Positions 1,643 through 44,903 of a stretch of DNA of 47,964 nt are shown piece after piece (within the stretch, counting starts at the first letter, position 1; each line of letters starts with the position of its first letter). The position numbers and the translations under genes were made by a program. The stretch is from a virus. The stretch spans positions 1 through 47,964 of IMG/VR virus record IMGVR_UViG_3300015262_000006; one strand, written 5' to 3'. Under the pieces are notes generated by a model, which was given only the letters and a program-made list of their open reading frames with translations, ran no database searches and was not told the DNA's origin.

Positions 1643-1656
1643 GTTCTCCGGAAAAC
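1643..1656. promoter_or_regulatory. Dispersed palindromic operator, site 1
   Basis: The sequence is GTTCTCCGGAAAAC, one mismatch from the perfect palindrome GTTCTCCGGAGAAC. It lies in the divergent control region and covers the -35 position of the regulator operon, as expected for autoregulation. Confidence 0.65.
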
Positions 1657-1707
1657 ACTTAGATTTTGATGGCTATAAACCGCCAGCCTCTTATAACGAA
1701 ATCGTCT

Positions 1708-1735
1708 TTGACTGTAACCGTATGTGTCCTATCCT
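1708..1735 (+). promoter_or_regulatory. Sigma70-type promoter for the plus-strand early operon
   Basis: TTGACT (1708-1713) and TATCCT (1730-1735) are separated by 16 bases. An 8-bp hairpin with one mismatch (1745-1765, GGGGCAGC/GCCGCCCC) would lie at the very 5' end of the transcript and may stabilise the leader. Confidence 0.6.
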
Positions 1736-1807
1736 TTAGATCAAGGGGCAGCAAGAAGCCGCCCCAATCTTGAGATAAGGATCTAAACACTTTTAGAGGC
1801 TAAGACG

Positions 1808-2365
1808 ATGACTACTGAAAAAAGCAAACAGGGCAAGGTTCTCCAGGCGATTGCAGAGCAAGGCGACAAACTGGACAATGTAGCTGGTGCTTTTATGAAG
1901 CTAGTCAAGGAAGAACAGATAGACACGCTGGAGAAATTCAATCCGTGGTTAGCTGTTGGTTACGAAGAGAACGGATGGTCGAACGTTATTGGGCGACCGG
2001 TGCCAGGTTCTGTGTTGACTCCGGCGCCGAGGGCGGTTAAGCAGTACGCCTCGATGTTCCGTGCTGCGTACAGGTACGAAATGAAGGTCACCGAGTTCGA
2101 AACGGTGCGGCAGATGGTTGATGCTGTTGCCGAGAAGCGTAAAGAACTCGCTAAGCCCGTCGAGCGTATCCAGGATCCAGAGCTTAAAGGTGTTCTGGTG
2201 AAGGCTGGAGCGCGAATGAACGGAGCACTATGGCATGACGCAATAGTCGTCATAGAACACCTCAACGACGACGACAAGGATGATTTCGAGCAGCGACTAC
2301 GCAAGCTCGTGATGCGCTTCCAATCCAAGGTTCCGAAAGAGATCCGCAAGCAGGTTGCCGCCTAG
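1808..2365 (+). CDS. Hypothetical protein, first gene of plus-strand early operon
   Basis: This 185-residue protein is charged, mostly helical in appearance and lacks a signal or membrane segment. I do not recognise its family. It contains a central segment with GRPVPGSVLTPAPRAVKQY and an acidic patch HLNDDDKDDFEQR near residue 160. The start is supported by GAGG 8 bases upstream. It has its own promoter (1708-1735) and is followed by an operator copy (2374-2387) and a strong terminator, so it is a single-gene transcription unit opposite the HTH regulator. That position is typical of an early host-takeover or regulatory gene, but this is inference. Confidence 0.8.
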   Translation: MTTEKSKQGKVLQAIAEQGDKLDNVAGAFMKLVKEEQIDTLEKFNPWLAVGYEENGWSNVIGRPVPGSVLTPAPRAVKQYASMFRAAYRYEMKVTEFETVRQMVDAVAEKRKELAKPVERIQDPELKGVLVKAGARMNGALWHDAIVVIEHLNDDDKDDFEQRLRKLVMRFQSKVPKEIRKQVAA

Positions 2366-2373
2366 CGTAAAGA

Positions 2374-2387
2374 GTTCTCCGCAGAAC
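2374..2387. promoter_or_regulatory. Dispersed palindromic operator, site 2
   Basis: The sequence is GTTCTCCGCAGAAC, with perfect five-base arms and one changed central base. It is intergenic, 9 bases after the preceding stop and 2 bases before a terminator hairpin. Confidence 0.6.
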
Positions 2388-2389
2388 AG

Positions 2390-2420
2390 AAAGGCCAGCT
2401 AGAAATAGTTGGCCTTTTTT
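2390..2420 (+). terminator. Rho-independent terminator
   Basis: The stem AGGCCAGCTA/TAGTTGGCCT has one G-U pair and a GAAA tetraloop, followed by six T residues. It ends the unit of the preceding hypothetical gene. Confidence 0.9.
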
Positions 2421-2421
2421 G

Positions 2422-2450
2422 TTGACTGGAATAAATGCCCGCGTTAATGT
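2422..2450 (+). promoter_or_regulatory. Candidate promoter for the ProQ/recombination genes
   Basis: TTGACT (2422-2427) lies directly after the terminator, and a weak -10, TAATGT (2445-2450), follows at 17-base spacing. The ProQ gene starts 28 bases further on. Confidence 0.45.
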
Positions 2451-2478
2451 GAGCGCACACCAACAGAGGGGTTGATTC

Positions 2479-2850
2479 ATGAATCACAAAGAGAAAGTAA
2501 AAGCAGGGATAGAAGGTCTGCGGTCGGCATTCCCTAAGATCTTCAGTCGCGACCAGCCAAAGCCACTGGCTATTGGCGCCTGCCGCCAGCTTAATCAGGC
2601 GCGTCGTAACGGAGTTCTGAATATCTCTGTGCTTGTTCAGCGAGCGGCTATCAATTCTTGGCTGTGCAGTTCCAACTACCATCGTGCCGTTGCCAGCACG
2701 CCATGCCGTTATAACCTTGACGGCTCTGCATCTGGCCCAGTATCTGATGAGCATCGTCAGCGGGCAATCGACAAGCTCAAAGAGATTCGCAAGGCCAAGA
2801 AAGCGCGCCGTGCAGCAATTAAGGCATCGAAGCTGAAGGTGGCAGCATGA
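2479..2850 (+). CDS. ProQ/FinO-family RNA chaperone
   Basis: This 123-residue protein matches the ProQ/FinO domain over about residues 8-95. Visible elements are LRSAFPKIF near the start, KPLAIGACRQL, a basic segment, and SNYHRAVASTPCRYNLDGS, which resembles the family pattern YLxAL...RYDLDG. A lysine/arginine-rich tail follows (KARRAAIKASKLKVAA). Family members bind structured RNAs, stabilise or pair small RNAs, and some are plasmid- or phage-borne. It probably acts in the cytoplasm on phage or host RNA. GAGGGG stands 8 bases before the ATG. The stop overlaps the next small gene by four bases. Confidence 0.85.
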   Translation: MNHKEKVKAGIEGLRSAFPKIFSRDQPKPLAIGACRQLNQARRNGVLNISVLVQRAAINSWLCSSNYHRAVASTPCRYNLDGSASGPVSDEHRQRAIDKLKEIRKAKKARRAAIKASKLKVAA

Positions 2851-2978
2851 ATTACCGGATAAATATCTGGTCAGCAATGGATGGCGAGCTTGAGAAATTC
2901 GGAAGCAGAAAAGTAATCAAGAAGCTAAAGCGAGATCGCATCATGAAACTCGTAAAATACTGGAGGCGCGCACAATGA
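2847..2978 (+). CDS. Small basic protein coupled to proQ-like gene
   Basis: This 43-residue frame starts at an ATG overlapping the previous stop (ATGA) and ends with a TGA overlapping the next ATG (CAATGA). The product is basic (KVIKKLKRDRIMKLVKYW) and begins MNYRINIWSAMDGELEKFG. I do not recognise a family. The perfect overlaps on both sides are the main support. Position suggests co-translation with the RNA chaperone and the nuclease. Confidence 0.7.
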   Translation: MNYRINIWSAMDGELEKFGSRKVIKKLKRDRIMKLVKYWRRAQ

Positions 2979-3868
2979 CGGAAGTGCAAGAAGACTGGAT
3001 CGTCCGGCAAGAATCACAGCCTGTTAAACAAGAGCGCCAAAAATTCGCAGTAGGCCTGCATGAAGGTTTGAGCAATGCCGATTATCACGCAGACGAGGCG
3101 GTCGGCAGCACAGGCCTAAAGCGAATCCTCGTCAGCCCTGCACACTTCCGATACCCGAACCCATTCAACGCGACTCGGGCCAAGGAGATCGGCAGCGCGA
3201 TTCATTGCCGCATTCTTGAGTCTGATCGCTGGGATACGGATTACAAGGTAGTTGAGTGTGATGCTCGCACGTCGGCGCTGTACAAGGCTGCGTGTAAGGA
3301 TCATCCGAAAGAACGCGTGTTGACTTCGGCTGAATACGAGAATGTTCTTGGAATGCAGAAGGGGGTGATGCGCAACCGCCATTGCCGAGAACTGATCAAG
3401 GCACCGGGGCGATATGAGCTTAGCCTTTTCACAACAGATCCAATTACAGGGGTTCAGGTCAAGGTTCGCTATGACAAGCTGACTGATTCCGGGATGCCGG
3501 TCGATCTTAAGAAGACGCAGAAAGCAGGCCGAGACGATTTCTCACGTACGATCAACAACTACGGGTATCACATCAGCGCCGCACTCTACATGGACGCCTG
3601 GGAGTGGCAATTCGGCGAGAAGCTGGACGTTATGCGATGGATCGCAATCGAGGAACAATCGCCGCATGCGGCTATGCGCTACAAGCCAGATGCTGATGCT
3701 CTGATGATTGCTCGCGCTTTGTATCGTGAAGCCCTGGAAATTTACGCGAATTGTCTTGATCGCGATGAGTGGCCGAGTTACGATGAATCAGAAGAAGAGA
3801 TTGGTTTGCCGGGTTACGCCGTGAATCAGTTTGAAGATGGTTTAGAAGTTAATGGATTGGAGGATTGA
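2975..3868 (+). CDS. PD-(D/E)XK exonuclease, RecE/exonuclease VIII-like
   Basis: This 297-residue protein resembles the C-terminal nuclease domain of exonuclease VIII (DUF3799). Motifs in order: GLSNADYHA, where substrate entry segments usually lie; GSAIHCRILE with the histidine (about 70-80); RYELSLF; VRYDKLTD with the motif II aspartate (about 165); PVDLKKT with the D-x-K pair (about 177); and the YHISAALYMD helix. Such nucleases degrade one strand to give 3' tails for annealing. The adjacent SSB and conserved hypothetical protein make a recombination module. No clear RecT/Beta annealase is present, so the next gene or a host protein may supply annealing. Confidence 0.85.
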   Translation: MTEVQEDWIVRQESQPVKQERQKFAVGLHEGLSNADYHADEAVGSTGLKRILVSPAHFRYPNPFNATRAKEIGSAIHCRILESDRWDTDYKVVECDARTSALYKAACKDHPKERVLTSAEYENVLGMQKGVMRNRHCRELIKAPGRYELSLFTTDPITGVQVKVRYDKLTDSGMPVDLKKTQKAGRDDFSRTINNYGYHISAALYMDAWEWQFGEKLDVMRWIAIEEQSPHAAMRYKPDADALMIARALYREALEIYANCLDRDEWPSYDESEEEIGLPGYAVNQFEDGLEVNGLED

Positions 3869-3869
3869 A

Positions 3870-4046
3870 ATGAATACTGCTTCTTGGATTCTGATTGTTT
3901 GGCTAGTGATTCAGCTATTCGGGCGGCTTTTCCGTGCGGGTAAAAAGCATAAAGAGCCAATGGATTTGGTTGGTTCTGGTGCTGGATGCTGCTTGTGGTT
4001 GGCCTGTATGGTTTATTTGATTCATCTTTCTGGGGGCTGGAACTAA
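3870..4046 (+). CDS. Small membrane protein (58 aa)
   Basis: The predicted product has a first hydrophobic segment (SWILIVWLVIQLFGRLF), a basic loop (RAGKKHKEP) and a second hydrophobic segment (CCLWLACMVYLIHL). I chose the ATG at 3870 because GGAGG lies about 8 bases upstream. Its TAA overlaps the next ATG (TAATG). Function unknown. Confidence 0.6.
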   Translation: MNTASWILIVWLVIQLFGRLFRAGKKHKEPMDLVGSGAGCCLWLACMVYLIHLSGGWN

Positions 4047-4606
4047 TGACTGACATGGCAAACCTGCGGGAAACAATCACGCCTAAGAGCGACAGGATCA
4101 ACGCCGATGACTTTATCGCCGGCCCTGAAACGGTAGAGATCACCGCCGTCAAGCGTGGCGATGCAGATTCACCAGTCGCCGTGCACATCAAGGACCGCAA
4201 GCCATGGTATCCGTGCAAGTCCATGCGCCGTGTGCTAATCACTGCTTACGGCGATAACGGCGCAGATTGGGTTGGTAAGTCGGCAACCTTATTCTGCGAT
4301 CCTGCTGTGCGTTTCGGTGGTGTTGCAGTCGGCGGGATTCGTATTGCTGCTCTGTCTCACATTGAGAATGATCTGGCAATCTCGCTGACGACTACTCGCG
4401 GGAAACGCTCACCGTATACCGTGAAAAAATTGTCGGTCGTCTACTATGACCAAGCTAAGTTTGATGCTAACCTTCCGGCCTGGATCGCAGCAATCAGCGC
4501 TGGCAAGGCTACGGCAGACGCCATCATCGGCAAGGTAGAGCAGTCCGGCAAGCTCACTGACGAGCAGAAAGAAAAAATTCGTAATCCACAAGAGGCGGCA
4601 CAATGA
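4046..4606 (+). CDS. Conserved phage protein in recombination cluster
   Basis: This 186-residue protein starts at the ATG in TAATG. It contains INADDFIAGPETVEITAV, KPWYPCKSMRRVL and FGGVAVGGIRIAALSHI. This layout, with beta-strands and then a C-terminal helix rich in K/E/Q, I associate with conserved phage proteins encoded between a nuclease and SSB. I cannot name its activity. A DNA-binding OB-like fold or an annealing role is conceivable from context only. It overlaps ssb by four bases. Confidence 0.75.
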   Translation: MTDMANLRETITPKSDRINADDFIAGPETVEITAVKRGDADSPVAVHIKDRKPWYPCKSMRRVLITAYGDNGADWVGKSATLFCDPAVRFGGVAVGGIRIAALSHIENDLAISLTTTRGKRSPYTVKKLSVVYYDQAKFDANLPAWIAAISAGKATADAIIGKVEQSGKLTDEQKEKIRNPQEAAQ

Positions 4607-5007
4607 ACCTGTTTGCATTCACTGGCAATATCGGCGGCGACGTCAAGGTTAACAACGCTGGCGGTACAGCCGTAGCGAATTTCAGCGTTGCTGTTAAGGC
4701 TGGTTACGGCGACAAGGCACAGACAATCTGGATCGCTTGTGCGCTTTGGGGCAAACAGGCCGAATCGAAGCTTACAGACTACCTAGTAAAGGGCCAGGGT
4801 GTTACGGTATCTGGCGAGCTGTCGACTCGCGAGCATGACGGCAAGACGTATTTGCAGGTTCGTGTAGGTACGATTGATCTGGTTGGCGGAGGTAAGTCTG
4901 AAGGTGGTAGTCAGCCTGCGCCACGACAGCAATCAGCACCACGACAAGACTCGCAGCCACAGCAGCGACCAGATCACGAAGACTTTGATAATTCCATACC
5001 TTTTTGA
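4603..5007 (+). CDS. ssb: Single-stranded DNA-binding protein
   Basis: This 134-residue protein has an N-terminal OB fold: MNLFAFTGNIGGDVKV, then FSVAVKAGYGDK, WIACALWGKQAE, YLVKGQGVTVSGELS. A low-complexity Q/P-rich linker (about 100-125) and an acidic tip DFDNSIPF follow. The tip matches the D-D-x-I-P-F signature that recruits host repair and replication proteins. The protein coats ssDNA during replication and recombination. It is slightly shorter than bacterial SSB, as usual in phages. Confidence 0.95.
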   Translation: MNLFAFTGNIGGDVKVNNAGGTAVANFSVAVKAGYGDKAQTIWIACALWGKQAESKLTDYLVKGQGVTVSGELSTREHDGKTYLQVRVGTIDLVGGGKSEGGSQPAPRQQSAPRQDSQPQQRPDHEDFDNSIPF

Positions 5008-5015
5008 CCTAACAC

Positions 5016-5036
5016 TGCCCCGCTAACCGCGGGGCA
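5016..5036 (+). terminator. GC-rich hairpin after ssb
   Basis: A perfect 8-bp stem TGCCCCGC/GCGGGGCA encloses a 5-base loop. There is no T-run, so it may be an RNA processing or stability element, or a weak terminator. Confidence 0.5.
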
Positions 5037-5072
5037 ATCCACTCCACAGAAAGTATCGGAAACTGTAACTTT

Positions 5073-5258
5073 ATGCGCAAAGGCACGCCTAGATCTAATC
5101 TAACCGCGCACGACGTAGCGCAGATCCGCGAACTTATCGAATGGAAAAAAGAAGAGTTGGCTAGGATCAATTCGATTGCTAGTATGCAGTCCTTGGCCGA
5201 TAAATTTGGCGTATCGGTAGTAACCATTCACAAGATTAGCAGCTATAGGACCTGGTAA
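5073..5258 (+). CDS. Small HTH protein
   Basis: This 61-residue protein reads NLTAHDVAQIRELIEWKKEE, then SMQSLADKFGVSVVTIHKI, ending in SYRTW. This is a helix-turn-helix of the type often attached to phage HNH proteins (LADKFGVSxxTIxxI). It has no nuclease domain. It begins a block of three HTH genes and is followed at once by the next ATG. Confidence 0.7.
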   Translation: MRKGTPRSNLTAHDVAQIRELIEWKKEELARINSIASMQSLADKFGVSVVTIHKISSYRTW

Positions 5259-6183: not shown

Positions 6184-6589
6184 CGCCCTGTAGAAATTTT
6201 ATTTGGGCGTCTTTGGTTTCGATGAGTCGTCGATGGGCGAGATAAGCTGATTCAGACTCTCGGTCGAGGATGGCAGTTCCTCCATTGCCCAAGCTGGAAT
6301 CACCGGAAGCTGGCACACAGGTGGCGCCAATTGACAGCCGCTTAGAAGCGCGAGAAAGATCAATGGCAAGCTGATCAGTTTTAGCCTTTGCATCTGATAA
6401 TTCCTTGCTGGCCTTTGCGTCAGCTTGAGTTACGACGATTGATTGTTCTATTAGTATCTGCGCCTTCTCCTGAGCTTGATGTAGCTCAATCCTAGACACG
6501 CTAGCATCATGCCAAAGCATGACGACGAACGCGCCGCATGCGAGGCCTGAGAGAAAGCGCCATGGTAGCGCGGTTAGCCAGATTGGCAT
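6155..6589 (-). CDS. Inner-membrane spanin subunit (Rz-like)
   Basis: This 144-residue protein has one N-terminal membrane segment (about 9-27, FLSGLACGAFVVMLW) and a long periplasmic helical region rich in K, E and Q (HQAQEKAQILIEQ, SKELSDAKAKTDQ). That is the i-spanin plan. It lies immediately after the endolysin and contains the lipoprotein partner in another frame, which makes the Rz/Rz1 assignment firm. Spanins fuse the inner and outer membranes in the final lysis step of Gram-negative hosts. Confidence 0.9.
   Translation of the reverse strand: MPIWLTALPWRFLSGLACGAFVVMLWHDASVSRIELHQAQEKAQILIEQSIVVTQADAKASKELSDAKAKTDQLAIDLSRASKRLSIGATCVPASGDSSLGNGGTAILDRESESAYLAHRRLIETKDAQIKFLQGVIRVLQGAQ
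6199..6393 (-). CDS. Outer-membrane spanin lipoprotein (Rz1-like), nested
   Basis: This 64-residue frame is entirely nested in the Rz gene in a different frame. It starts MQRLKLISLPLIFLALLSGC, a lipoprotein signal with lipobox LSGC at cysteine 20. The mature part is short and proline-rich (APPVCQLPVIP, SKPKTPK). This is the classic o-spanin design. Its position inside the i-spanin gene matches lambda Rz/Rz1. Confidence 0.88.
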   Translation of the reverse strand: MQRLKLISLPLIFLALLSGCQLAPPVCQLPVIPAWAMEELPSSTESLNQLISPIDDSSKPKTPK

Positions 6590-7035
6590 TAGTGTTCTCC
6601 GGAGAACATTTTCAGCTCAGCCTTGCGACGGCGAGTAAGACCAGCCATAACCTTTCCATCGTTCTTGTCCCAGCGAAGAAGCTGAAGCCCTGCATTCGCG
6701 TAATAGCCTTCGTTAAGCATCTTAAGCAGGGTAGAGCTTCGTAGACTGCCAAGCCCTAGGTTGTAGGCGAACGATACCAAGGCATCGAATTGGCCCTGAG
6801 TCAGTGGCACGGTTACCGCCTGCGATACGCCCAGCTCAACCTTGGCAAGCTCCTTTGCAAAGCGAGCGTCTGCCTGTCCCTTTGTCCAGACCGTGCCGGG
6901 TCCAATATCCATACCGGTCGAACCATAACCCACAGTCCATGGCTTGCCGTCTTTGCTGCCAGGATCTGGATAAGCCTTAAGTCGCAATGACTCAAAGCTA
7001 TGGATTAGGTCGATACCGGCCTGTGATGTCTTCAT
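6589..7035 (-). CDS. Endolysin, phage-type lysozyme (GH24)
   Basis: This 148-residue protein has the T4/P22-type lysozyme catalytic region: IHSFESLRLKAYPDP with Glu15 and Asp24, then TVGYGST with Thr40, giving the E-D-T triad. Also visible are FDALVSFAYNLGLG and GLTRRRKAELKMF near the end. It cleaves the glycan backbone of peptidoglycan. There is no signal peptide or SAR segment, so it needs a holin for release. The holin is encoded far away (35640-35969). GAGGTG stands about 8 bases before the ATG. The last codons contain a copy of the dispersed palindrome. Confidence 0.93.
   Translation of the reverse strand: MKTSQAGIDLIHSFESLRLKAYPDPGSKDGKPWTVGYGSTGMDIGPGTVWTKGQADARFAKELAKVELGVSQAVTVPLTQGQFDALVSFAYNLGLGSLRSSTLLKMLNEGYYANAGLQLLRWDKNDGKVMAGLTRRRKAELKMFSGEH
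6594..6607. promoter_or_regulatory. Dispersed palindromic operator, site 3 (perfect)
   Basis: The perfect palindrome GTTCTCCGGAGAAC lies within the last codons of the endolysin gene (Met-Phe-Ser-Gly-Glu-His), 5 bases from the endolysin/spanin junction. No promoter is evident beside it, so it would act, if at all, like a stoperator. Confidence 0.6.
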
Positions 7036-7078
7036 TTATGCGCACCTCAAAATATATTTCTATCTTAACAAAAATAGA

Positions 7079-9317: not shown

Positions 9318-9592
9318 CCGCTCTAGAGCTATACAACCAGCGAGTGCCAGTAAAGGCCATTGCTAGACAGATTGGCTACAGCGAAGGACATACCAGGCGA
9401 ATACTAAAGGCTCAGGGATACGAGCCAAACAGGATCGGCGGAACACGGATTACATATGAACAAGCATTCCAGGCGAAGGAGATGGATCTAAAAGGTTGCT
9501 CTTGGCGAGAGATAACTAATACTCTAGGACCAAGCTGGAAGGCATTAAAGAAGGCGATTGAATACTATGCAGCACAGCGCATTGACGAATAG
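9314..9592 (+). CDS. HTH protein
   Basis: I set the start at TTG (9314), which overlaps the previous stop as TTGA and has AGGAG 8 bases upstream. The product (92 aa) begins LTALELYNQRVPVKAIARQI with GYSEGHTRRILKAQGYEPNR, a good helix-turn-helix. A second similar unit (SWREITNTLGPSWKALKKAI) follows. Probably a DNA-binding regulator. Confidence 0.6.
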   Translation: MTALELYNQRVPVKAIARQIGYSEGHTRRILKAQGYEPNRIGGTRITYEQAFQAKEMDLKGCSWREITNTLGPSWKALKKAIEYYAAQRIDE

Positions 9593-13600: not shown

Positions 13601-16239
13601 GGAGGGCTCTGGTCATCGCTTAAATAGACTGCCTCATTATACGCCATCGCCTCTACGCTAGCGGAGTCAGTGCCATTTGGAGATATGGAGGTAATAAGCA
13701 CTTTGTACCCGATGCCGAATAACAAGTGGGGCGGCTCACGATCAAGAGAAGTATCAGGCGGAAAGTCCAAGCCGGAGATAGATAGATGGAAGTCATCAAT
13801 GCGAGTTGCGATATATGGGCCAGCGCTAGAACCGTCTTGACGGCGCACATAAACGTAGTGAGGGCCTGGATCTGACCAGTCGAAAGCTTCTGACGATTCA
13901 ATAACACCATTGTCATACGAGATCATATAGGCCGATTGCGCATAGCCTGGAACGTCGTCTGCTACCTGTACATAGCTCAAGTAGCGGCTATTCAAGGCGT
14001 CAAGCTCAGTAGACCAGCGATATTCCCAGCGACGGTACTTCATCGCTCGACGCTGACGCATACCGATCTGCCACGCCTTCGTGCGATTCGTGCAGCCGTC
14101 AGCTTTAACCTTCTGAACACGAACACCTTGATCTCCGGGAAGTCGGCACTCAACGGTTTCAACTTGCCACGAAATGCCGTCTGTATATTCAACATCTACG
14201 CCATCGAAATCATCAGGGCGAACGGCGGTAAAGTCGCGCTCTAGCGGCTCAGTCATGTTCTGAGGCGTGTACATGCTCTCAAACGCAGTACGAGGCTCGT
14301 CACGCACCGGGCGCAATAATCCACGGTCAACGGTAAGCTCAGAGAATCCGCAGTTCAGAGCATCATTTATGACGCCTTTAGCGGTGCCGTTAGAGTTAGT
14401 CGCTTGGTCGTAATGGTCGCCGCGAGCCTTCCAAATTGCATCCAGGCGGTCTAACTCTGCATAGTCAATCTCGGCATCTGTATAGCCGACAGATTTGGCG
14501 ACGTAAGCAAAGAACGGAGCGATGTCCCGTGTAGGTTGCGCTGGCTGCCATACTCCACCTACACGAACAGGAAGCTTGCGGGTTGCTTCTACCGAAATCA
14601 TCGACTCAGATTGCGCGGAGAGGCGATCACCGCCGCGAGCATTCACGGCCATGATGGTCACGCCTTCGTAGGCAATAGGCGATGCAAGCAACGAACGGCA
14701 GCCATACCAAACAGCCGAATCCTGCCATTCCTGAGAAACTACGGGGCTTCGTTTAATACGTGCTTCGGCGCGCATCGGATAAGGCAGGTCAATCTTGAAC
14801 GTGTAGCCGACAGCATCGAGCGATACGTTGCTGACGGTTCGCTCTTCGACGGTCCACGCGCCTGCGATATCCATATCGCGCCACTCGAAATAGTGAGTGG
14901 CTGGCACGGTGTATCGGTCGCCATTCTTTGCGCCAAGGCCGATCAAGCCGCCAGGAAAGAAAACATCCCACTCAATGGAGTAGGCTTTCTCGCCAGAGGG
15001 ACAGACAGCGAACGGGCCTCGATACCCACCCTGCAAGCTGGACTGATCCAGAACGATAGAGGATGCGGTAGTAGACAGGAACGTAAATCCAGAGAATCCT
15101 GTATCTGTAGAGCCAGACGACGTAAGGCGCTGAATGGTTAGCTGTGGCGTGCTGAATACAGTGATGCGGTAACGAAGGCCTACAGGGCCTATGCAGGTTA
15201 CGATTGTTCCAAGCGTGAACGATGTAACGGGAGATCCGCCAACGAAGTTAAGCGTCATCTCTGGAGGCGTAGCACCAACAGCAGGCGTATAGCTGTTGAC
15301 TACATACAAGCCGCCATTGACGCCAGAGATTTCAATGTTATCGCCAACCGATGGCGCCAACATTTGCAGGTTGAAACCTCTAATAATGTCGCGTCCAGCA
15401 CCGCCATCAACGAACTCGTACTGATACGGAATGATTGCGCGGATGATAAGGCCCGAAGACCAGTCGGCAGGGAACGAACCTTGGCCAGCAGGAATATTAA
15501 TATTGAATGCGTTGTACTGAATCGATGAGGCCACGAAGCTTGGCGTCAAAGCATTGGCGATAGTAAGTTCAAGACCAGACGAACCGTTAGAGCTAGAACC
15601 GACCTCTGTTACATCGTTCCACCAGAAGTGCGCAGGATCGCCAGAAATGTTAGTTCCTGGTGGATAGACGCTATATATAACATCCGAGCCAAGAGAGATT
15701 GCCGGAGTATCGCCAATAAGGATCTTGTCTGAAGGGATGTCATGGTCGCCAACGCCGACGCACAACAGCATTTCCACACGCTGTTCGCGAGGACTGGCAA
15801 AGTAACGGCGCGGAGGCAGAAGGTAGTCAGGATAAACCTTGCGACGGCCAGCAATCTCGCGAACAGGGGAGTTGATCTTTACCTTGTTACCCTTAATAGA
15901 TGCCTCGTTAATGCCTTCGCCGTTCTGGCTAGTGGTATTAACTTTCGGAATCTTTGGCGTCATCAGCTTAATGGCGACTAAGAACAGTGCTCCGAAAAAC
16001 AGTTCCGTGCCTTTTGGTTCAATGACAATATCAACTGCGTCGTCTTTCGAGAAGATAGTTAGCGCCCACTCGGTAGCATCGACGACCGATCCGTTAAGCG
16101 AAACACTGATTGGGTGAACATCCATATCAGAATAGCTAGGCACGTTCTCGGCCAGCCAGTCACGCACAGAGATACCGCCAACCGAATATTCTTCGCATGG
16201 CTCATCGTTAAGCTTTGATCCGAATACTCTAACGGTCAC
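13597..16239 (-). CDS. Central tail tip protein (J-like host specificity)
   Basis: At 880 residues this is the second-largest gene. The N-terminus (about 1-75) resembles the small ThiS/MoaD-like domain seen in some tip proteins (VRVFGSKLNDEPCEEY ... VISLNG-type strand). The body contains INEASIKGNKVKINSPVREI and GRRKVYPDYLLPPRRYF, and later GVTIMAVNARGGDRLSAQSE, which recall J-family proteins that form the tip hub. Beta-rich fibronectin-like stretches follow. Position after the NlpC/P60 protein and before the fibres is exactly that of gpJ. It overlaps both neighbours by 4-11 bases. Confidence 0.82.
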   Translation of the reverse strand: MTVRVFGSKLNDEPCEEYSVGGISVRDWLAENVPSYSDMDVHPISVSLNGSVVDATEWALTIFSKDDAVDIVIEPKGTELFFGALFLVAIKLMTPKIPKVNTTSQNGEGINEASIKGNKVKINSPVREIAGRRKVYPDYLLPPRRYFASPREQRVEMLLCVGVGDHDIPSDKILIGDTPAISLGSDVIYSVYPPGTNISGDPAHFWWNDVTEVGSSSNGSSGLELTIANALTPSFVASSIQYNAFNINIPAGQGSFPADWSSGLIIRAIIPYQYEFVDGGAGRDIIRGFNLQMLAPSVGDNIEISGVNGGLYVVNSYTPAVGATPPEMTLNFVGGSPVTSFTLGTIVTCIGPVGLRYRITVFSTPQLTIQRLTSSGSTDTGFSGFTFLSTTASSIVLDQSSLQGGYRGPFAVCPSGEKAYSIEWDVFFPGGLIGLGAKNGDRYTVPATHYFEWRDMDIAGAWTVEERTVSNVSLDAVGYTFKIDLPYPMRAEARIKRSPVVSQEWQDSAVWYGCRSLLASPIAYEGVTIMAVNARGGDRLSAQSESMISVEATRKLPVRVGGVWQPAQPTRDIAPFFAYVAKSVGYTDAEIDYAELDRLDAIWKARGDHYDQATNSNGTAKGVINDALNCGFSELTVDRGLLRPVRDEPRTAFESMYTPQNMTEPLERDFTAVRPDDFDGVDVEYTDGISWQVETVECRLPGDQGVRVQKVKADGCTNRTKAWQIGMRQRRAMKYRRWEYRWSTELDALNSRYLSYVQVADDVPGYAQSAYMISYDNGVIESSEAFDWSDPGPHYVYVRRQDGSSAGPYIATRIDDFHLSISGLDFPPDTSLDREPPHLLFGIGYKVLITSISPNGTDSASVEAMAYNEAVYLSDDQSPP

Positions 16240-32253: not shown

Positions 32254-33012
32254 TTATTTGCTCAAGATATCGAATGCTGTTGCTGCCAAGCGTGGAACTT
32301 GTCCATTTCCAATTGCCTTAAGTCGGTCCATCCCAAAGGCCACATCATGACCGATTCTGCGAACAAGGGATTCAGGTAGATCGGATCTTCCTCGCAAGTC
32401 CTCAATCCCTCTGACATCTTCGCCCCACGGTAGTCTGGAGAACCGATATAGCGCCTTTTCTGCGATCCCTTGCCCTCGTTTGCGCCTGTTGTTGGTAGCG
32501 ACAATCCAGATCCGCTCTCGTAGGTGAACTCCGCCGACGTCACGACATGAAAGCACTCCCCATTCCGCATCGAACCCCATCTTGGCCAGGTCTGCAAGGA
32601 CGACTCCGAGTCCTCGAAGAGTGAGCGCTGGGCTATTTTCCACAAGGACGTATTCGGGGTCAACCTCGCAAACGATTCTTCCCATTTGCTTCCAGAGGCC
32701 GGATCTGTTTCCTTCGATACCAGCCCCATTCCCGGCAACTGATATGTCCTGACACGGGAATCCGCCAGAAACCACCTCAACAAGTCCGCGCCACGGTCTT
32801 CCGTCAAAACTGCACACGTCAGACCAAATTGGGAAAGGTTTGAGTGCTCCATCGTTTTGTCGTTGCGCCAGAACTTGTGCTGCGTAGGCATCACGCTCAA
32901 CGGCGCAGACGGTGCGCCATCCCAAGAGGTGGCCTCCGAGTATTCCTCCACCGGCTCCTGCAAAGAGCGCGAGTTCTCGTAATCCTGCATCAGTGCTCGA
33001 CTTATTAGCCAT
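32254..33012 (-). CDS. DNA (cytosine-5) methyltransferase
   Basis: The 252-residue protein has the C5 methyltransferase motifs: motif I LFAGAGGG (about 16-23) for AdoMet, an acidic residue in VERD (39-41), the catalytic loop SGGFPCQDIS with Cys87, ENS at 125-127, RERIWIVA (motif VIII) near 165-172, and AIGNGQVP near the end (motif X). A target-recognition region between VIII and IX is short, so recognition may be of a small site. It probably methylates phage DNA against host restriction. The same DNA holds a second long open frame (32262-33017). Confidence 0.93.
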   Translation of the reverse strand: MANKSSTDAGLRELALFAGAGGGILGGHLLGWRTVCAVERDAYAAQVLAQRQNDGALKPFPIWSDVCSFDGRPWRGLVEVVSGGFPCQDISVAGNGAGIEGNRSGLWKQMGRIVCEVDPEYVLVENSPALTLRGLGVVLADLAKMGFDAEWGVLSCRDVGGVHLRERIWIVATNNRRKRGQGIAEKALYRFSRLPWGEDVRGIEDLRGRSDLPESLVRRIGHDVAFGMDRLKAIGNGQVPRLAATAFDILSK

Positions 33013-33406: not shown

Positions 33407-33434
33407 ATTGTATATGGCTGGCAGTCAGCGTCAA
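33407..33434 (-). promoter_or_regulatory. Strong sigma70 promoter after terL
   Basis: On the minus strand TTGACG (33434-33429) and TACAAT (33412-33407) are separated by 16 bases. It drives the endonuclease VII/methyltransferase operon. The palindromic operator at 33437-33450 lies 2 bases upstream of its -35. Confidence 0.75.
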
Positions 33435-33436
33435 GT

Positions 33437-33450
33437 GTTCTCCGAAGAAT
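33437..33450. promoter_or_regulatory. Dispersed palindromic operator, site 4
   Basis: The sequence GTTCTCCGAAGAAT has two changes from the perfect palindrome. It is intergenic, between the terL stop and a strong minus promoter, which it abuts. Confidence 0.65.
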
Positions 33451-39409: not shown

Positions 39410-39618
39410 TTGGTTGTTTTCCATGGCAAGAAAGCGGCGCTTAACAAGGTAACGAATTCACGCTTAACATCATCCTTGATCTCTTGATATCCGGTGTACA
39501 TAGCTACACATAGCACGATTACAGGGTAAAGCAGTATGCTTATAACGGCGATCAGGCGCGTTAGCAGCGGGTATCTCTGCAAGCCTTTTCGGATTGGTGT
39601 CGGATCAAATGTTTTCAC
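39406..39618 (-). CDS. Small membrane protein (70 aa)
   Basis: One membrane helix (LIAVISILLYPVIVLCVAMY) is flanked by a basic N-terminus and a charged middle (GYQEIKDDVKREF). Four-base overlaps with both neighbours. Function unknown. Confidence 0.6.
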   Translation of the reverse strand: MKTFDPTPIRKGLQRYPLLTRLIAVISILLYPVIVLCVAMYTGYQEIKDDVKREFVTLLSAAFLPWKTTK

Positions 39619-39803
39619 TCTGCATCCTCCAGCTCATCAACGTCGATATGAGCTTCTAAATACGCGACCTCCTGAAGCTTGCGCTGCTCCCTAACCCCAA
39701 GATTCCCATCCTCCAATCTGCTCTGGCTAATCCCTGTGCGGCTGGCGATCAGGCTCATATTCCAGCCGCGATTCTTCATTTCCTTGATGATTCGGTCATG
39801 CAT
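39615..39803 (-). CDS. Small HTH protein (62 aa)
   Basis: The product MHDRIIKEMKNRGWNMSLIA then SRTGISQSRLEDGNLGVREQ has the shape of a minimal XRE/Cro-type helix-turn-helix. A regulator role is possible. Confidence 0.6.
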   Translation of the reverse strand: MHDRIIKEMKNRGWNMSLIASRTGISQSRLEDGNLGVREQRKLQEVAYLEAHIDVDELEDAE

Positions 39804-40904: not shown

Positions 40905-41263
40905 CAGGAAGGGTTCTCCGGAGAACTGATAGCTGCGTCAATTACGTAGTCGGCAGACTCGAAAGTTAAAGCTATGCTCGACGGCGCGCCACAGGAAGGG
41001 AGCGTCACGATTATGTAAGGACCAGATCCAACACTTTGCGAACACGATCCAACTATCTGCCTAGAAACCCCTCTCTCCTTTAGCCAACGATACCGCTCAG
41101 CATCCTTGCGCAGACATTCGTTCTCGGACTTGAGCTTATGTATCTCCTGTCGCATGCATTGCCTGCACTGAGCAAGTGGCGTGCCTTTGCCGTATTCCTC
41201 TTGCCCGCAAACATCTGCGTAACCCTGACCGCCGCCAAACGACGCGCCGCAATAGATACTCAT
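40904..41263 (-). CDS. Hypothetical protein with coiled-coil core
   Basis: The start at 41263 has GGAGGGG about 5 bases upstream. The 119-residue product has cysteines near the start (CGQEEY, CRQCMRQE) and EIHKLKSENECLRKDAERYR then WLKERG, a common phage coiled-coil and AERYRWL motif. The last codons hold a perfect copy of the dispersed palindrome. Function unknown. Confidence 0.7.
   Translation of the reverse strand: MSIYCGASFGGGQGYADVCGQEEYGKGTPLAQCRQCMRQEIHKLKSENECLRKDAERYRWLKERGVSRQIVGSCSQSVGSGPYIIVTLPSCGAPSSIALTFESADYVIDAAISSPENPS
40913..40926. promoter_or_regulatory. Dispersed palindromic operator, site 5 (perfect)
   Basis: The perfect palindrome GTTCTCCGGAGAAC lies in the last codons (Ser-Pro-Glu-Asn) of the gene at 40904-41263, near a gene junction and with no promoter evident beside it. 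Confidence 0.6.
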
Positions 41264-41346: not shown

Positions 41347-41660
41347 AGCGATTCTCCGATTTCAGATGCGCAAAGAAGTACGGCGCGACGTGTGTCTGAT
41401 GCTAGGTCGCCAGTATAGCTAGCCATCCAGCAGTGATGGACGCCCTCATCGCTTGCATGAACCTCGCCGAACCCTGGAAAGTAATTTACGTCTAGCCGCA
41501 GCATGACCATCAGCTCAAACGAATCGGCGCTACTCGTCTCAGGCTCCCACCGCCTAACAATCGCCCCATCCTTAACCAGATAATGGCTGCCATCTGGATC
41601 CGTGAAAAGGTCATGCTCAATCGCGAAGGCTGCGTTTTTTAGGGTTGTGTTGGTGATCAT
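41337..41660 (-). CDS. Hypothetical protein (107 aa)
   Basis: The product begins MITNTTLKNAAFAIEHDLFT, with SHYLVKDGAIVRRWEPETSS and a late TRRAVLLCASEIGESL. It overlaps the preceding gene by four bases. No family recognised; an accessory phage protein. Confidence 0.6.
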   Translation of the reverse strand: MITNTTLKNAAFAIEHDLFTDPDGSHYLVKDGAIVRRWEPETSSADSFELMVMLRLDVNYFPGFGEVHASDEGVHHCWMASYTGDLASDTRRAVLLCASEIGESLCQ

Positions 41661-41875
41661 TTTGAGAACTCCTTGGCTGCAACAAATCTACGAGCGAAAT
41701 CCAGCACGTCTTGTTCCCACTCAGCACCAACGCCATCGTCAAATGCGAACAACATCCCTGACAGTGCTCGCTCAAGCATATCAATCGTATTCTGCTTGGC
41801 TTGAAGCTCGCAACCTACGCACTGACGATAGCCCTGGAACGGATTAGCTTTGTGTTCTGCACATACCTTAGTCAT
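41657..41875 (-). CDS. Small Cys-containing protein (72 aa)
   Basis: I start at the ATG at 41875 with GGAGGG a few bases upstream. The product MTKVCAEHKANPFQGYRQCV then GCELQAKQNTIDMLERALSG has cysteine pairs and a C-terminal helix. It is first in its block after a terminator. Function unknown. Confidence 0.6.
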   Translation of the reverse strand: MTKVCAEHKANPFQGYRQCVGCELQAKQNTIDMLERALSGMLFAFDDGVGAEWEQDVLDFARRFVAAKEFSK

Positions 41876-41896
41876 ACACCCTCCAAATTTTCCGCA

Positions 41897-41925
41897 AAAA
41901 GAAAGGCTCACATTAGGAGCCTTTT
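41897..41925 (-). terminator. Terminator after the queE-dpdA genes
   Basis: The stem AAGGCTC/GAGCCTT (41903-41923) has a 7-base loop. On the minus strand it is followed by a T-rich run (TTCTTTTT). It separates the DNA-modification operon from later genes. Confidence 0.8.
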
Positions 41926-41944
41926 GGTGGTTTTGCAAGGGTTA

Positions 41945-42670
41945 TTACATAGCCATCTCAATCTGATCGCTTTTCACCCATACAGCAGAACTGTTGCTTG
42001 CTTCTATTCGGCTAGCTATCACCTCAGCTCGTTGTCCTGCCGTTGGAGGCGGGTACATTCCGAAGCGCTTGATGCTGCCAGCATTCACTCCAGCATTTGT
42101 GGAGTCTGCGCTAGATAGCGGAAGCTCACTGAATATCTTTGGATCTAGCATTCTGAGCCCATGAAGCCTGCACATTGGCCTACCAAGATCGTCGCAAACA
42201 GCATCCATTACTAAAGCCATCCTTGCCCACCACGCATCAGTCCCTGGCGATTTCCATTGCCCAGAACTACCTATCGCCACCACTGACCACTCACTGGCTA
42301 GACGCTGAAGACGCTCCATTGATTCATGCAGATGCCATACGGGAACACCTCGCATAGACTTAGGCCAACGATCAATCAATTCATCGTTTGCATTCTCATC
42401 GCCATCAATGACGTCAGGTATCAGCGCCCAGTCAAACCCTGGGTGCTTGTGCCACTTTTCAACCCAGTAGATGTACCCCTTCACATCCATAGTAAAACCC
42501 TTCGTCCATGCCGAGAAGGCCCCGTTATCCAGCACGAAGGATTGGCAAGCATTGGCCACGATTGGCATGCTCTGCTGATATGCAAACGATACCAGCGCAT
42601 GCCTGCCTTTCAGGAACTTTGCAGCATCAATGCCGTCTCCGCTAATAGGGGTTCCATGGTAATGAATCAC
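41945..42670 (-). CDS. dpdA: DpdA-like DNA 7-deazaguanine transglycosylase
   Basis: I place the start at GTG (42670), which overlaps the queE stop as GTGA, has GGGG about 6 bases upstream, and gives MIHYHGTPISGDGIDAAKFL, the usual DpdA beginning. The 241-residue product shows LKGRHALVSFAYQQ, FVLDNGAFSAW (with a likely catalytic Asp), ALIPDVIDG, VPVWHLHES, VVAIGSSGQW and RLHGLRML. These are motifs of the TGT-like barrel in phage DpdA proteins. The enzyme exchanges guanine in DNA for a 7-deazaguanine base. It has no other domain. A GTG at 42682 would add four residues. Confidence 0.85.
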   Translation of the reverse strand: MIHYHGTPISGDGIDAAKFLKGRHALVSFAYQQSMPIVANACQSFVLDNGAFSAWTKGFTMDVKGYIYWVEKWHKHPGFDWALIPDVIDGDENANDELIDRWPKSMRGVPVWHLHESMERLQRLASEWSVVAIGSSGQWKSPGTDAWWARMALVMDAVCDDLGRPMCRLHGLRMLDPKIFSELPLSSADSTNAGVNAGSIKRFGMYPPPTAGQRAEVIASRIEASNSSAVWVKSDQIEMAM

Positions 42671-43293
42671 CGAACACCCCACGCCTTATGAGCCTGGATA
42701 GAAACTCGCCACCTCGGATTGAGTTGAGCGTATTCAATGGCAGCTTCGGTGTTTTCAGTGATCGACGGCCCATCAATCGGCTGTAACGAATACCTTTGCG
42801 CATGAATGTCCTGCACGTCTTTAGGTTCGATATCGGCAAGCGGAAACAGAAGCTTTACCTCGTCAGCCTTGTCAAGAGTAAGCGGTAGACGCTTGGGGCT
42901 TAGCGTAACCCAGCACTTATCAGCGCCAGCAAGCGGAACACTGCCATTCGTCTCAACTGCGATCTCTGCACCGTAAGCCAGCAGCAGATCAACAAGAGAC
43001 TCGGTGATCTGTAGAGCTGGCTCACCACCTGTAAGCACGATGAATGGTGTCGCAGACCAATTCACCCACTGATTCAGGATTGCCGATACCAATTCAGCCT
43101 CGGTATAGCGATCACCACCAACAAAATCAGTATCGCAAAACGAGCAAGCTGATTTAGCCTTGTCCTCCTGGCGCCCTGACCACATATTGCAGCCGGCGAA
43201 CCTGACGAAAACAGCAGGGCGTCCGATATGGAAGCCCTCCCCTTGCACCGTATAAAATATTTCCTTAACCAGAAAGCTTTTAGAGAATTTCAC
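42667..43293 (-). CDS. queE: 7-carboxy-7-deazaguanine synthase (QueE)
   Basis: The 208-residue radical-SAM protein has its cluster cysteines at 35, 50 and 53 (FAGCNMWSGRQEDKAKSA with CSFCDTDF), the C-x14-C-x2-C spacing of proteobacterial QueE rather than the usual C-x3-C-x2-C. IFYTVQGEGFHIGRPAVF and the later GGEPAL are family marks. It turns carboxy-tetrahydropterin into CDG. The start is GTG with AAGGGA upstream. FolE, QueD and QueC are not present, so substrate must come from host metabolism. Confidence 0.93.
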   Translation of the reverse strand: MKFSKSFLVKEIFYTVQGEGFHIGRPAVFVRFAGCNMWSGRQEDKAKSACSFCDTDFVGGDRYTEAELVSAILNQWVNWSATPFIVLTGGEPALQITESLVDLLLAYGAEIAVETNGSVPLAGADKCWVTLSPKRLPLTLDKADEVKLLFPLADIEPKDVQDIHAQRYSLQPIDGPSITENTEAAIEYAQLNPRWRVSIQAHKAWGVR

Positions 43294-43305
43294 TATGCGA
43301 TCCCT

Positions 43306-43557
43306 TCATTTTTGCCTTAAAGATTTGATCCTAACGCCTTGATGGATCGCGGTCAATTCCTGATAGCCTCCAAAGCTAAGAAATAGATCATCGGCAATCT
43401 GCTCGTGGATTCCCTTTTTGATTAGTGCAGTAGCTGTCTTAATGTGCTCGACCATGATGGTTACTGGCGACAGGATAACCAGTTCATAGATGATCTGGTC
43501 ACCATCGTTAGGACAGGTTGCGACGAATGTGTGCTGATACTCGTTAATGCTTTTCAC
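43306..43557 (-). CDS. Conserved small protein upstream of queE
   Basis: The 83-residue product begins MKSINEYQHTFVATCPNDGD then QIIYELVI, with MVEHIKTATALIKKGIHEQI and LSFGGYQELTAIHQGVRI. I believe it belongs to a conserved family but cannot name an activity. It is only 12 bases upstream of queE and may belong to the modification pathway. It is too short and lacks the His pattern for QueD. Confidence 0.65.
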   Translation of the reverse strand: MKSINEYQHTFVATCPNDGDQIIYELVILSPVTIMVEHIKTATALIKKGIHEQIADDLFLSFGGYQELTAIHQGVRIKSLRQK

Positions 43558-43736
43558 TTCAATATCTCCCGAGCCAACATCTGAATATCGCTCCAGAGCT
43601 GCGATGACGGGCTTTCGTCGTACTGGCCTAGCATCTTGGCCAAACGAATTCCAGCGGGCTTGTGGGTGTCTTCTTGAGGCTTTGGCTGTTCGTGCTTGAT
43701 CACTGTGGCTAGCTCCATCTGTCCAGGCAATGTCAT
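43554..43736 (-). CDS. Small hypothetical protein (60 aa)
   Basis: Four-base overlaps on both sides. The product has a polar N-terminal part and IRLAKMLGQYDESPSSQLWS then DIQMLAREILK. No family recognised. Confidence 0.55.
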   Translation of the reverse strand: MTLPGQMELATVIKHEQPKPQEDTHKPAGIRLAKMLGQYDESPSSQLWSDIQMLAREILK

Positions 43737-44008
43737 TTCTTCTTCTCCATGATTTGTTTGGCGCGATAATACCAGTCCCCAGGATATTCCTGCTGACTCA
43801 ATTCGTCCACCATCTCCTGAATGAGCGACACATAAATATCAGTCGTCTCCTGGCAGCGGGTGAAGGCGTCGAGGCGTACATTAAGCTCCATACACTCGAT
43901 CTTTACTGGAGATCCGTGCGCGCATACGTAAGCCCCGAATACTGGCGACCAAAACACACCCTCAGGCACCGGCCAAATTTCCTCAAAACGCTCTCGAATC
44001 GTCTTCAT
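43733..44008 (-). CDS. Hypothetical protein (91 aa)
   Basis: The product begins MKTIRERFEEIWPVPEGVFW and contains AYVCAHGSPVKIECMELNVR and LDAFTRCQETTDIYVSLIQE, ending in EKKK. It is first in its local block. The 54-base gap upstream contains CCAATATATTGG (44022-44033), a palindrome that may belong to a promoter. Function unknown. Confidence 0.6.
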   Translation of the reverse strand: MKTIRERFEEIWPVPEGVFWSPVFGAYVCAHGSPVKIECMELNVRLDAFTRCQETTDIYVSLIQEMVDELSQQEYPGDWYYRAKQIMEKKK

Positions 44009-44062
44009 TTCCCACTCCGATCCAATATATTGGGATTTGTAGAATTATTGGTCAGTTTTTGA

Positions 44063-44293
44063 TCAGTAGGTTGCAGGTTGCTTGAGCTGTTCTTGCTTTA
44101 TACCCTCGGCCAGCCCTTGAGCAAACGAGCTAAGACCTAGGTAAGTGATTGATTCTGCAATGGTCATGTTTGCCAGTTTGTCAGCATCACGAAAGCTCAT
44201 AGTGCCTTCATTTACGCAAGTATCTACAATTGCCTTGACTAAACTCTGAATGGCTATGTGCAGGTGCTCTGTTGCTGATTCGATACGCGTCAT
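44063..44293 (-). CDS. Small helical hypothetical protein (76 aa)
   Basis: I prefer the second of two adjacent ATGs (44293) because GAGGG lies about 7 bases upstream of it. The product is helical: ESATEHLHIAIQSLVKAIVD, TMSFRDADKLANMTIAESI. No family recognised. Confidence 0.55.
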   Translation of the reverse strand: MTRIESATEHLHIAIQSLVKAIVDTCVNEGTMSFRDADKLANMTIAESITYLGLSSFAQGLAEGIKQEQLKQPATY

Positions 44294-44303
44294 CATCTAT
44301 CCC

Positions 44304-44480
44304 TCAGTAAAAGTCAACGAAAAGTTCCCCTTTCTCCCCCAATTCGCAGTCACACTCAAGCTGAGATATCAGCACCCCAACAATAGGCTTGTGCTCATCA
44401 AACCCTGTGCCTAGCTTTAGTTCGCCGCCGTGAGTGTCGTAGGCGGCTAGGAGGATGGGGAGTAGGTCGGTTAGGGTCAT
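44304..44480 (-). CDS. Small hypothetical protein (58 aa)
   Basis: Starts at an ATGA overlap at 44480. The product MTLTDLLPILLAAYDTHGGE then LKLGTGFDEHKPIVGVLISQ ends with an acidic segment (ECDCELGEKGELFVDFY). No family recognised. Confidence 0.55.
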   Translation of the reverse strand: MTLTDLLPILLAAYDTHGGELKLGTGFDEHKPIVGVLISQLECDCELGEKGELFVDFY

Positions 44481-44866
44481 TGCATAAGCTCGGATGGAAT
44501 GGAAATGGTTTCGCCTAGTTTGTCTAGGACGATAGCTCGGCACGCGGCAATCAAATGGGTTGCTCCAAATGACCCATACACTTCACCCTTGATAATTGGA
44601 AGCCCATCGTCTTGGCAAGGATAAGAATAAACCAAGCCTACTCGCTCAAATGTAAGATCCAGCTGGTATTTGTCAATCAGCGGGCCTCCATCTGCCCATT
44701 CAGTAGATGGCGAATAGCATGCCTGAACAGACCAGTCAGCAAGCCACGCCTCACGACTTCCTGACCATGCGCCTGCTCCTAGATGATTGCTGCGCACTGC
44801 GTATCCTACCGCCCAATCCAAGGCCGCTCCAATCAATTCACTCGTCTTAACTTCTACAATATCCAT
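44477..44866 (-). CDS. NinX-like protein (DUF2591)
   Basis: The 129-residue protein starts with VKTSELIGAALDWAVGYAVR, then has YSPSTEWADGGPLIDKYQLD and ATHLIAACRAIVLDKLGETI, ending IPSELMQ. The order KTSEL-x-GAALDWAV, WADGGP, LIAACRA...KLGE is the DUF2591/NinX signature of lambdoid nin regions. Function of this family is not established. Confidence 0.85.
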   Translation of the reverse strand: MDIVEVKTSELIGAALDWAVGYAVRSNHLGAGAWSGSREAWLADWSVQACYSPSTEWADGGPLIDKYQLDLTFERVGLVYSYPCQDDGLPIIKGEVYGSFGATHLIAACRAIVLDKLGETISIPSELMQ

Positions 44867-44889
44867 CTCTACCCCTCCACCCTATATCT

Positions 44890-44903
44890 GTTCTTCGGAG
44901 AAT
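44890..44903. promoter_or_regulatory. Dispersed palindromic operator, site 6
   Basis: The sequence GTTCTTCGGAGAAT has two changes that spoil the perfect symmetry. It lies in the 39-base gap upstream of the NinX-like gene. Confidence 0.55.

Follow-up and report, generated by a model that had tools for sequence, protein, structure and literature searches.

Introduction

Dispersed operators, several to one repressor, are known from phages P1 (C1) and phiC31, whose repressors are lysogeny repressors of temperate phages. Here we describe six copies of a 14-bp palindrome, sites A to F, in the IMG/VR virus record IMGVR_UViG_3300015262_000006 (47,964 bases, analysed over its whole length and referred to below as the window), together with an unannotated gene, p185, whose product we propose as the reader of all six. 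The closest described layout is that of the L5-like (Cluster A) phages, in which one short site is likewise repeated over the genome, with one copy on a promoter and most in short junctions. The L5 sites are described as 13-bp, asymmetric and oriented, with about 24 copies in temperate phages; the repressor, at 183 amino acids similar in size to p185, binds as a monomer with an N-terminal helix-turn-helix (HTH), and lytic D29, a derivative, keeps the sites (PMC9283540, PMC5712189). In contrast, the window has a 24-bp dyad in about six copies without orientation and no integrase was found in it, while no HTH is recognised in p185, whose N-terminal domain comes out in the model as helices plus a short two-strand element.

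A second system for comparison is MrpR of SPbeta, which has a tyrosine-recombinase fold, reads the dispersed element SPBRE and maintains lysogeny (PMC10516654). The arrangement proposed here would share with it a dispersed intergenic element read by one regulator, but the catalytic-like domain of MrpR extends to residue 320, whereas p185 has 185 residues and its family occurs in phages that yielded no integrase. In the literature searched, which covered subscription journals little, neither a network of this kind in lytic phages nor the word GTTCTCCGGAGAAC was found.

The palindrome forms a set with conserved positions

All six palindromes are present where the sequence-only reading had placed them (1643, 2374, 6594, 33437, 40913 and 44890), and the two that it called perfect, at 6594 and 40913, are exact. 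The copies at 1643 and 2374 have one mismatch to the 14-bp palindrome and those at 33437 and 44890 have two. Of the common core said to be kept by the imperfect copies, the one at 1643, which reads GTTCTCCGGAAAAC, lacks AGAA. The comparison with shuffled sequence that had been suggested gave 9 window matches at ≤3 mismatches against a shuffled mean of 1.63 (maximum 5 in 100 shuffles), and the reversed pattern had no match in the window. The looser pattern GTTCTNNNNAGAAC was not in excess at ≤2 mismatches (23 compared with 19.0 in shuffled sequence), which places the signal in the full 14 bp. A 24-bp weight matrix scored the six sites at 25.9-32.3 bits relative to a maximum of 15.6 in 40 shuffles, although these scores are not independent because the matrix was trained on the window sites and their counterparts. 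The palindrome extends to a 24-bp dyad, TAACTGTTCTCCGGAGAACAGTTA, since the flanks, taken over all sites, prolong the dyad on both sides (A, G/C, T, T, A), and a dyad of this length fits a DNA-binding dimer. We regard it as almost certain that the sites are a regulatory set recognised through this dyad.

Relatives were taken from IMG/VR. A first set held 13 more complete genomes (terminal overlaps of 36-127 bp) and 7 fragments (G001-G020), all picked for holding an exact copy of the palindrome, which biases the sample; G021-G028 were added later, with G021, G022 and G027 obtained via p185 and G023-G026 and G028 via a tail gene. Gene contexts were read from open reading frames (ORFs) and tblastn without a gene caller. 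The 15 complete genomes considered together (the window, G001-G013 and G021) hold 66 matches when one mismatch is allowed and 91 when two are, relative to 0 and 1 for the reversed pattern. Each has 5-8 matches at ≤2 mismatches, and six of the 91 lie outside the six places, five in a tail gene and one at position 323 of G003. This last, GTTCTCCAGAGAAC, is an additional copy some 1.3 kb to the left of site A and has an equivalent at position 9549 of G018 (oriented coordinates). The exact word was found in 97 IMG/VR stretches, 50 of them related to the window by blastn; none of the other 47 had two copies at ≤1 mismatch in the stretch fetched.

Comparison of site positions in related phages, also suggested by the sequence-only reading, showed that sites B-F keep their junctions in 15/15 complete genomes and site A in 10/15. 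Counting every genome that covers the place, C and D were each kept in 19/19, F in 20/20 and E in 21/21 (20 classed by script and G013 by eye). Site A was found at ≤3 mismatches in 12/19, identical in seven of the 12, and also in G021 and G022. These counts omit 33 unclassed rows, of which 25 had 3 mismatches, five were 2-mismatch rows in the tail gene and three were 1-mismatch rows (G003 323, G018 9549 and the G013 E site, the last being the one counted by eye). Mean pairwise identity, computed without gaps, was 0.90-0.97 over the 14 bp compared with 0.27-0.76 in the 30-bp flanks, the former being high partly by construction since sites were selected at ≤2-3 mismatches.

p185 tracks with the sites

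Tracking of the 81 window genes by tblastn (E ≤ 1e-3) found 36 of them in all 14 complete site-rich relatives. Only p185 was both present in at least 12 of the 14 (here 14) and absent from both G023 and G024, two genomes that still match 48 and 51 of the 81 window genes. At ≤2 mismatches these two have 0 and 2 palindromes (the 2 being D and F), and both retain the lysozyme/Rz junction with site C destroyed. The matches number 6 in G021, 5 in G022 (where site B has 3 mismatches) and 5 in G027 (one of them in the tail gene); G028, a fragment of 21.8 kb that lacks p185, has 1. With two genomes lacking p185 among 17 complete ones, the association of gene and sites has p = 1/136 = 0.007, ignoring kinship. 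When p185 loci were collected with no reference to the palindrome, 34 of the 36 usable ones had site B at ≤2 mismatches, 2 nt past the stop codon in 27 of the 34. In the remaining loci, one B lies 406 nt on behind an inserted ORF and one has 3 mismatches; one further locus lacked a stop.

The relatives are mosaic genomes in which genes neighbouring the sites are often swapped, and those beside C, E and F are often non-homologous between genomes while the 14 bp stay constant. Such a pattern would suit palindromes that act as linkers guiding the exchange of gene cassettes, but this would leave unexplained the dyad and the promoter geometry at A and D, as well as the loss of site C between the same neighbours where p185 is absent. 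A primary role as linkers is accordingly improbable, and cassette exchange may instead be a by-product of conserved sites.

Distant homologues of p185 and their palindromes

Distant homologues, 28-41% identical to the window protein, occur in long-tailed phages (PPpW-3, Torfinnsbu) and in T7-like Krylovirinae. Six have palindromes of other sequence 1-4 nt past the stop codon: GTTATCGCGATAAT (G031), ATTATCAGGATAAT (G029), GTTGTCGCGACAAT (G037), GTTAACCAGTTAAC (Torfinnsbu), GATAACCCGGTTAAC (G026) and ATTAACGCGTAAAT (L281). In another, L271, the palindrome lies 7 nt past the stop. A near-palindrome within 22 nt of the stop was found for 7 of 17 homologues and for 30 of 697 ends of other ORFs (Fisher 7.5e-6 when defined as 14 bp and a single mispair; three other definitions gave 0.017, 0.0002 and 0.0007). 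Further copies occur elsewhere in G031 (two), G029 (one), G033 (two) and Torfinnsbu (one, near an ORF end), and several of them lie at an ORF end or across one. The palindromes of Torfinnsbu, whose host is Pseudomonas poae, are at 39478 and 26210 of L165. The contig G030, fetched whole, gave no seeded match. Torfinnsbu, PPpW-3, DDSR119, MR5 and phiB1_1 had no copy of the palindrome of the window's own clade at ≤2 mismatches, in a search that covered 50,000 of 53,022 bases of Torfinnsbu and 50,000 of 52,905 of DDSR119. The palindromes beside distant homologues are thus strong as an association and weak as a general rule.

DDSR119 has copies of the GTTAACCGGTTAAC type (L167, positions 25468, 29919 and 41207), of which one lies upstream of the p185 homologue and another across a stop codon. 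The DNA nick motif of another Pseudomonas phage, WACTRTGAC, is unrelated to the palindrome, and none is listed for Torfinnsbu in that paper (PMC11780129).

Helix-turn-helix proteins and host factors as readers

The binder favoured by the sequence-only reading was a small Cro/C1-type HTH protein encoded beside site A. Its position and its membership of a transcription-regulator family speak for it, as do the absence of site A from four complete genomes in which no HTH gene was seen (G001, G005, G008 and G012) and the relationship between three of the four HTH types found beside A. Members of these three types either are the window protein or are 30-64% identical to it, and the fourth type has no match. 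The types differ in recognition helix (LHYNTIK, SRQKIWAI, HPSMMWRI, WPHNISRW) without a corresponding change in site A, whose GTTCTCCGGAAAAC form (7/12) adjoins three types and whose GTTTTCCGGAAAAC form adjoins two. Furthermore, sites B-F are all present in the four genomes with no HTH gene seen, as judged from the first three minus-strand ORFs of at least 50 amino acids within 1.6 kb and from tblastn with the window's gene; G013, G015 and G017 have an HTH gene and have lost site A; and HTH70-like genes (37% and 42% identity) are found in the site-poor G023 and G024. The proposal is therefore poorly supported, and it is very unlikely that this protein is the repressor and the sites its operators.

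A second HTH candidate is the 62-amino-acid Cro-like protein p39615, which was found in all 21 site-bearing genomes examined and has weak matches to HTH and regulator families. It comes in three recognition-helix types among genomes that share the same site and is present at 55% and 50% identity in G023 and G024, which disfavours it as the binder; we consider it an unlikely reader. Constancy of the site while the phage HTH genes vary would also be expected if a host transcription factor read it. However, among relatives matching about 50 window genes, absence of p185 goes with few sites or none, and distant p185 phages (Pseudomonas phages where named) carry other palindromes in that place or none, making a host factor highly improbable.

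By comparison with the small HTH protein, p185 is the better candidate for the binder on the pattern of co-occurrence, and we think it quite likely that p185 reads the sites.

Structure of p185 and evidence against its role

The window protein matched no Pfam family above cut-off and no PHROG, and two of 26 homologues touch phrog_2563, which is unnamed (best E 7e-4). No HTH family model was matched by the 26 family members, with cut-offs given for member 1 only. The best Pfam E value was 0.015 (HMG_box, 3 members), and the only DNA-binding domain of the HTH kind listed for them was CggR_N (0.16, one member). The family had no convincing sequence match in the PDB set. An AlphaFold model of residues 1-118 (predicted local distance difference test, pLDDT, 86.7; predicted template modelling score, pTM, 0.72) is all-helical except for two short strands, and AlphaFold places a second helical part beyond this domain, after a low-confidence linker. 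The sole viral structure matched at E ≤ 0.001 was the homologue of PPpW-3.

Several points weigh against p185 as the reader of the sites. The protein has no recognised DNA-binding fold, and Foldseek gave no PDB match at E ≤ 0.001 with either the whole model or the N-terminal domain. VIA-align matched p185 residues 21-93 to Cre 67-129 (Z 2.2-2.8 over 55-60 residues, root-mean-square deviation, rmsd, 3.1-3.9) and p185 to the DNA-binding protein Bsg25A (Z 2.1 over 68 residues, rmsd 3.7), both at noise level, and the Cre match did not recur with the N-terminal domain alone. Matches to Mcl-1 and others were at noise level too, and the fold searches gave no usable match. The resemblance to Cre is worth knowing because MrpR, a reader of a dispersed element, has a recombinase fold, but a fold link between p185 and MrpR likewise stays at noise level. 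Among the genomes, G024 retains D and F without p185, and only two p185-minus genomes are known, in which a very diverged p185 could have escaped tblastn. G004 has an ORF between p185 and site B, which suggests that B follows the terminator and not p185 itself.

The distant homologues add to these difficulties. Ten of the 17, including those of the T7-like MR5 and phiB1_1, had no near-palindrome after the stop at the threshold used, and some of the 17 are mutually close. G025 and G026 have p185 homologues (36-40%) and no copy of the clade site at ≤2 mismatches, and in G025 no palindrome was seen past the p185 stop. Unseeded clustering of near-palindromes in five named p185 phages found nothing above chance, in a test that recovers only four of the window's six sites, and two-copy sets appeared in these phages only when seeded from the p185 flank.

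Promoters and gene junctions at the sites

The features of the window are listed in Table 1. Positions of A over the -35 region of the leftward HTH/replication promoter, and of D 2 bp before a promoter, had both been proposed and agree with the relatives. A -10-like hexamer preceded by TGn follows site A at +16/+17 in 12/12 genomes (the scan gives a bonus for TGn), and a -35/-10 pair with its -35 at +2 from site D scores 8-10 of 12 in 18 of 19 genomes and 5 of 12 in the remaining one. The statement that the other sites have no promoter close by fails at 2374, where an intrinsic terminator and a TTGACT promoter-like sequence follow at once. The 57-nt stretch of site B and terminator folds at -23.7 kcal/mol (z -5.0).

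Table 1 Positions of the palindromic sites, associated genes and predicted signals in the window
Feature	Position	Strand	Description
Small Cro/C1-type HTH protein	1408..1620	-	phrog_18104, E 4e-10; earlier candidate binder
Extended -10 of leftward HTH/replication promoter	1621..1626	-	Consensus match, 16 nt from site A
Site A, GTTCTCCGGAAAAC	1643..1656		24-bp dyad 1638-1661; between divergent HTH operon and p185
p185 promoter-like sequence, TTGACT-16-TATCCT	1708..1735	+	Consensus only; such matches no commoner than in shuffles
p185	1808..2365	+	185 amino acids, unannotated; lies between sites A and B; putative reader of the six sites
Site B, GTTCTCCGCAGAAC	2374..2387		8 nt past p185 stop, directly before intrinsic terminator
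Intrinsic terminator	2390..2420	+	Directly after site B; missing from terminator scan listing
Site C, exact	6594..6607		In last lysozyme codons, 4 nt before Rz-like spanin gene (-)
Weak seventh match, GTGCTCCGAAAAAC	15987..16000		Inside tail gene; weight matrix 19.4 bits, above shuffles
Leftward promoter, TTGACG-16-TACAAT	33407..33434	-	Consensus match, directly downstream of site D
Site D, GTTCTCCGAAGAAT	33437..33450		2 nt past TerL stop (-), 2 bp before -35 of leftward promoter
62-amino-acid Cro-like HTH protein (p39615)	39615..39803	-	In 21/21 genomes; rival binder
Site E, exact	40913..40926		Junction of small variable genes (-)
Site F, GTTCTTCGGAGAAT	44890..44903		2 nt past gene stop (-); next gene has its own Shine-Dalgarno

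Most of the sites lie at gene ends. The palindrome lies 2 nt after a stop codon at B in 14/19 genomes, at D in 11/19 and at F in 15/20 (five D rows and two F rows had no called ORF). The TAA of these gene ends may in part represent the dyad's own outer arm, given that site A shows it too and had no gene end found beside it. Site C, and E in most genomes, stand directly before a stop/start overlap, with the GGAG of the palindrome positioned as the Shine-Dalgarno sequence of the next gene (of the Rz-like spanin gene at C; at 40913 this is seen in relatives), although the ORF ending over E may be due to chance in some genomes.

This placement of GGAG in C, and in E of relatives, together with the position of site B between stop and terminator, would be in keeping with an RNA element, either as a hairpin where messages end or as a switch that conceals the Shine-Dalgarno sequence. 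The window word does fold, at -2.2 kcal/mol, and site C in its context at -4.4, but these energies are near those of shuffles (z -0.7 and -1.4), and for two distant homologues the palindrome gave no RNA fold at all. In addition, the dyad symmetry spans the would-be loop and extends into the flanks, and site A lies upstream of both proposed divergent promoters. With fold energies so near to shuffles the hairpin is disfavoured, and an RNA element is highly unlikely.

The match inside the tail gene has a counterpart in some relatives, GTGCTCCGAAGAAC in several of them, and may reflect coding constraint only or be a seventh site. At site C, differing endolysin genes (6589-7035, - strand) replace one another as far as the palindrome, with the Rz side unchanged. 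In 13 of 20 genomes, the window not among them, the 28 bp cacacccctccaaactctcaatttaact adjoin site F while the genes on either side change (window counterpart 44862-44903), forming a leader-like cassette. Site B and its terminator are directly followed by a gene for a ProQ/FinO-family protein (2479-2850, + strand, Pfam E 3e-19), also matched in G007, G010, G021 and G022.

Gene content and lifestyle

The first 123 bases of the record recur at its end, and on this basis the record was treated as complete, a circularly permuted assembly with 47,841 bp. It encodes replication and recombination functions (DnaB helicase, replication initiator, SSB and an exonuclease VIII-like gene) as well as lysis and virion proteins (lysozyme, Rz-like spanin, terminase subunits, major capsid protein and tail proteins). 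Megablast against the phage collection gave short patches only. The host is probably Pseudomonas, as the p185 family matches 16 phage records that are all of Pseudomonas phages.

The absence of an integrase noted in the sequence-only reading extends to the relatives. Neither integrase (PF00589) nor resolvase (PF00239) was found in any of the 14 genomes searched, in which the control families were positive in 14 and 10. Short peptide patterns for p185 and the major capsid protein pointed to 75 and 37 candidate stretches in 84,980 genomes, and no relative was confirmed in any of them. Together these results make a lytic life likely, and the comparison with L5 made in that reading is valid for layout and not for lysogeny: a dispersed, sequence-specific site at promoters and short junctions in conserved positions stands, whereas L5-type lysogenic silencing is unsupported because the site is palindromic, and hence without orientation, because it has about six copies and not more than 20, and because nothing found in these searches points to lysogeny.

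Two further gene groups were observed. Two genes at 41945-43293 (- strand), one queuine tRNA-ribosyltransferase-like (phrog_887, E 5e-69) and the other QueE-like (phrog_2076, E 4e-27), were matched, among 21 genomes, in the window and G001 only, and 7-deazaguanine DNA modification is a possible role for them. A DNA cytosine methyltransferase gene (32254-33012, - strand) includes a 225-bp patch 84-87% identical to Salmonella and Klebsiella phages and had no match in the 20 relatives.

Discussion

The reading that we favour, and hold to be somewhat more probable than its negation, is that a single regulator encoded by the phage, in all likelihood p185, uses the six palindromes as its operators and turns down transcription during lytic infection. 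In such a scheme p185 would be made early from its own short transcription unit between A and B and would bind the 24-bp dyad as a symmetric dimer. At A, over the -35 region of the leftward HTH/replication promoter, and at D, abutting the promoter behind terL, it would act at an operator and control initiation. At the junctions marked by B, C, E and F, the bound protein would serve as a road-block, or stoperator, hindering passing RNA polymerase. Early leftward and rightward transcription would thereby be turned down and read-through limited as lytic infection proceeds. The negative sign of this action is the less secure part, and a repressive or road-block role for the sites is a possibility that we rate slightly below even.

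More broadly, it is conceivable, as a tentative proposal, that p185 founds a new family of DNA-binding regulators, so far confined to phages, that runs a genome-wide stoperator-like network in strictly lytic phages as a developmental clock and not for immunity, with protein and dyad diverging together. The named phages with p185 are all Pseudomonas phages, both long-tailed and T7-like. The dispersed operators of P1 and phiC31 serve lysogeny, as do those of L5 and SPbeta. Judging from the palindromes that accompany distant homologues, the protein/DNA pair has seemingly changed specificity several times in step. If the proposal is true, a function would be assigned to a family without annotation, and a single protein could time lytic gene expression from gene ends; it also makes testable the question of why a virulent phage retains stoperator-like sites.

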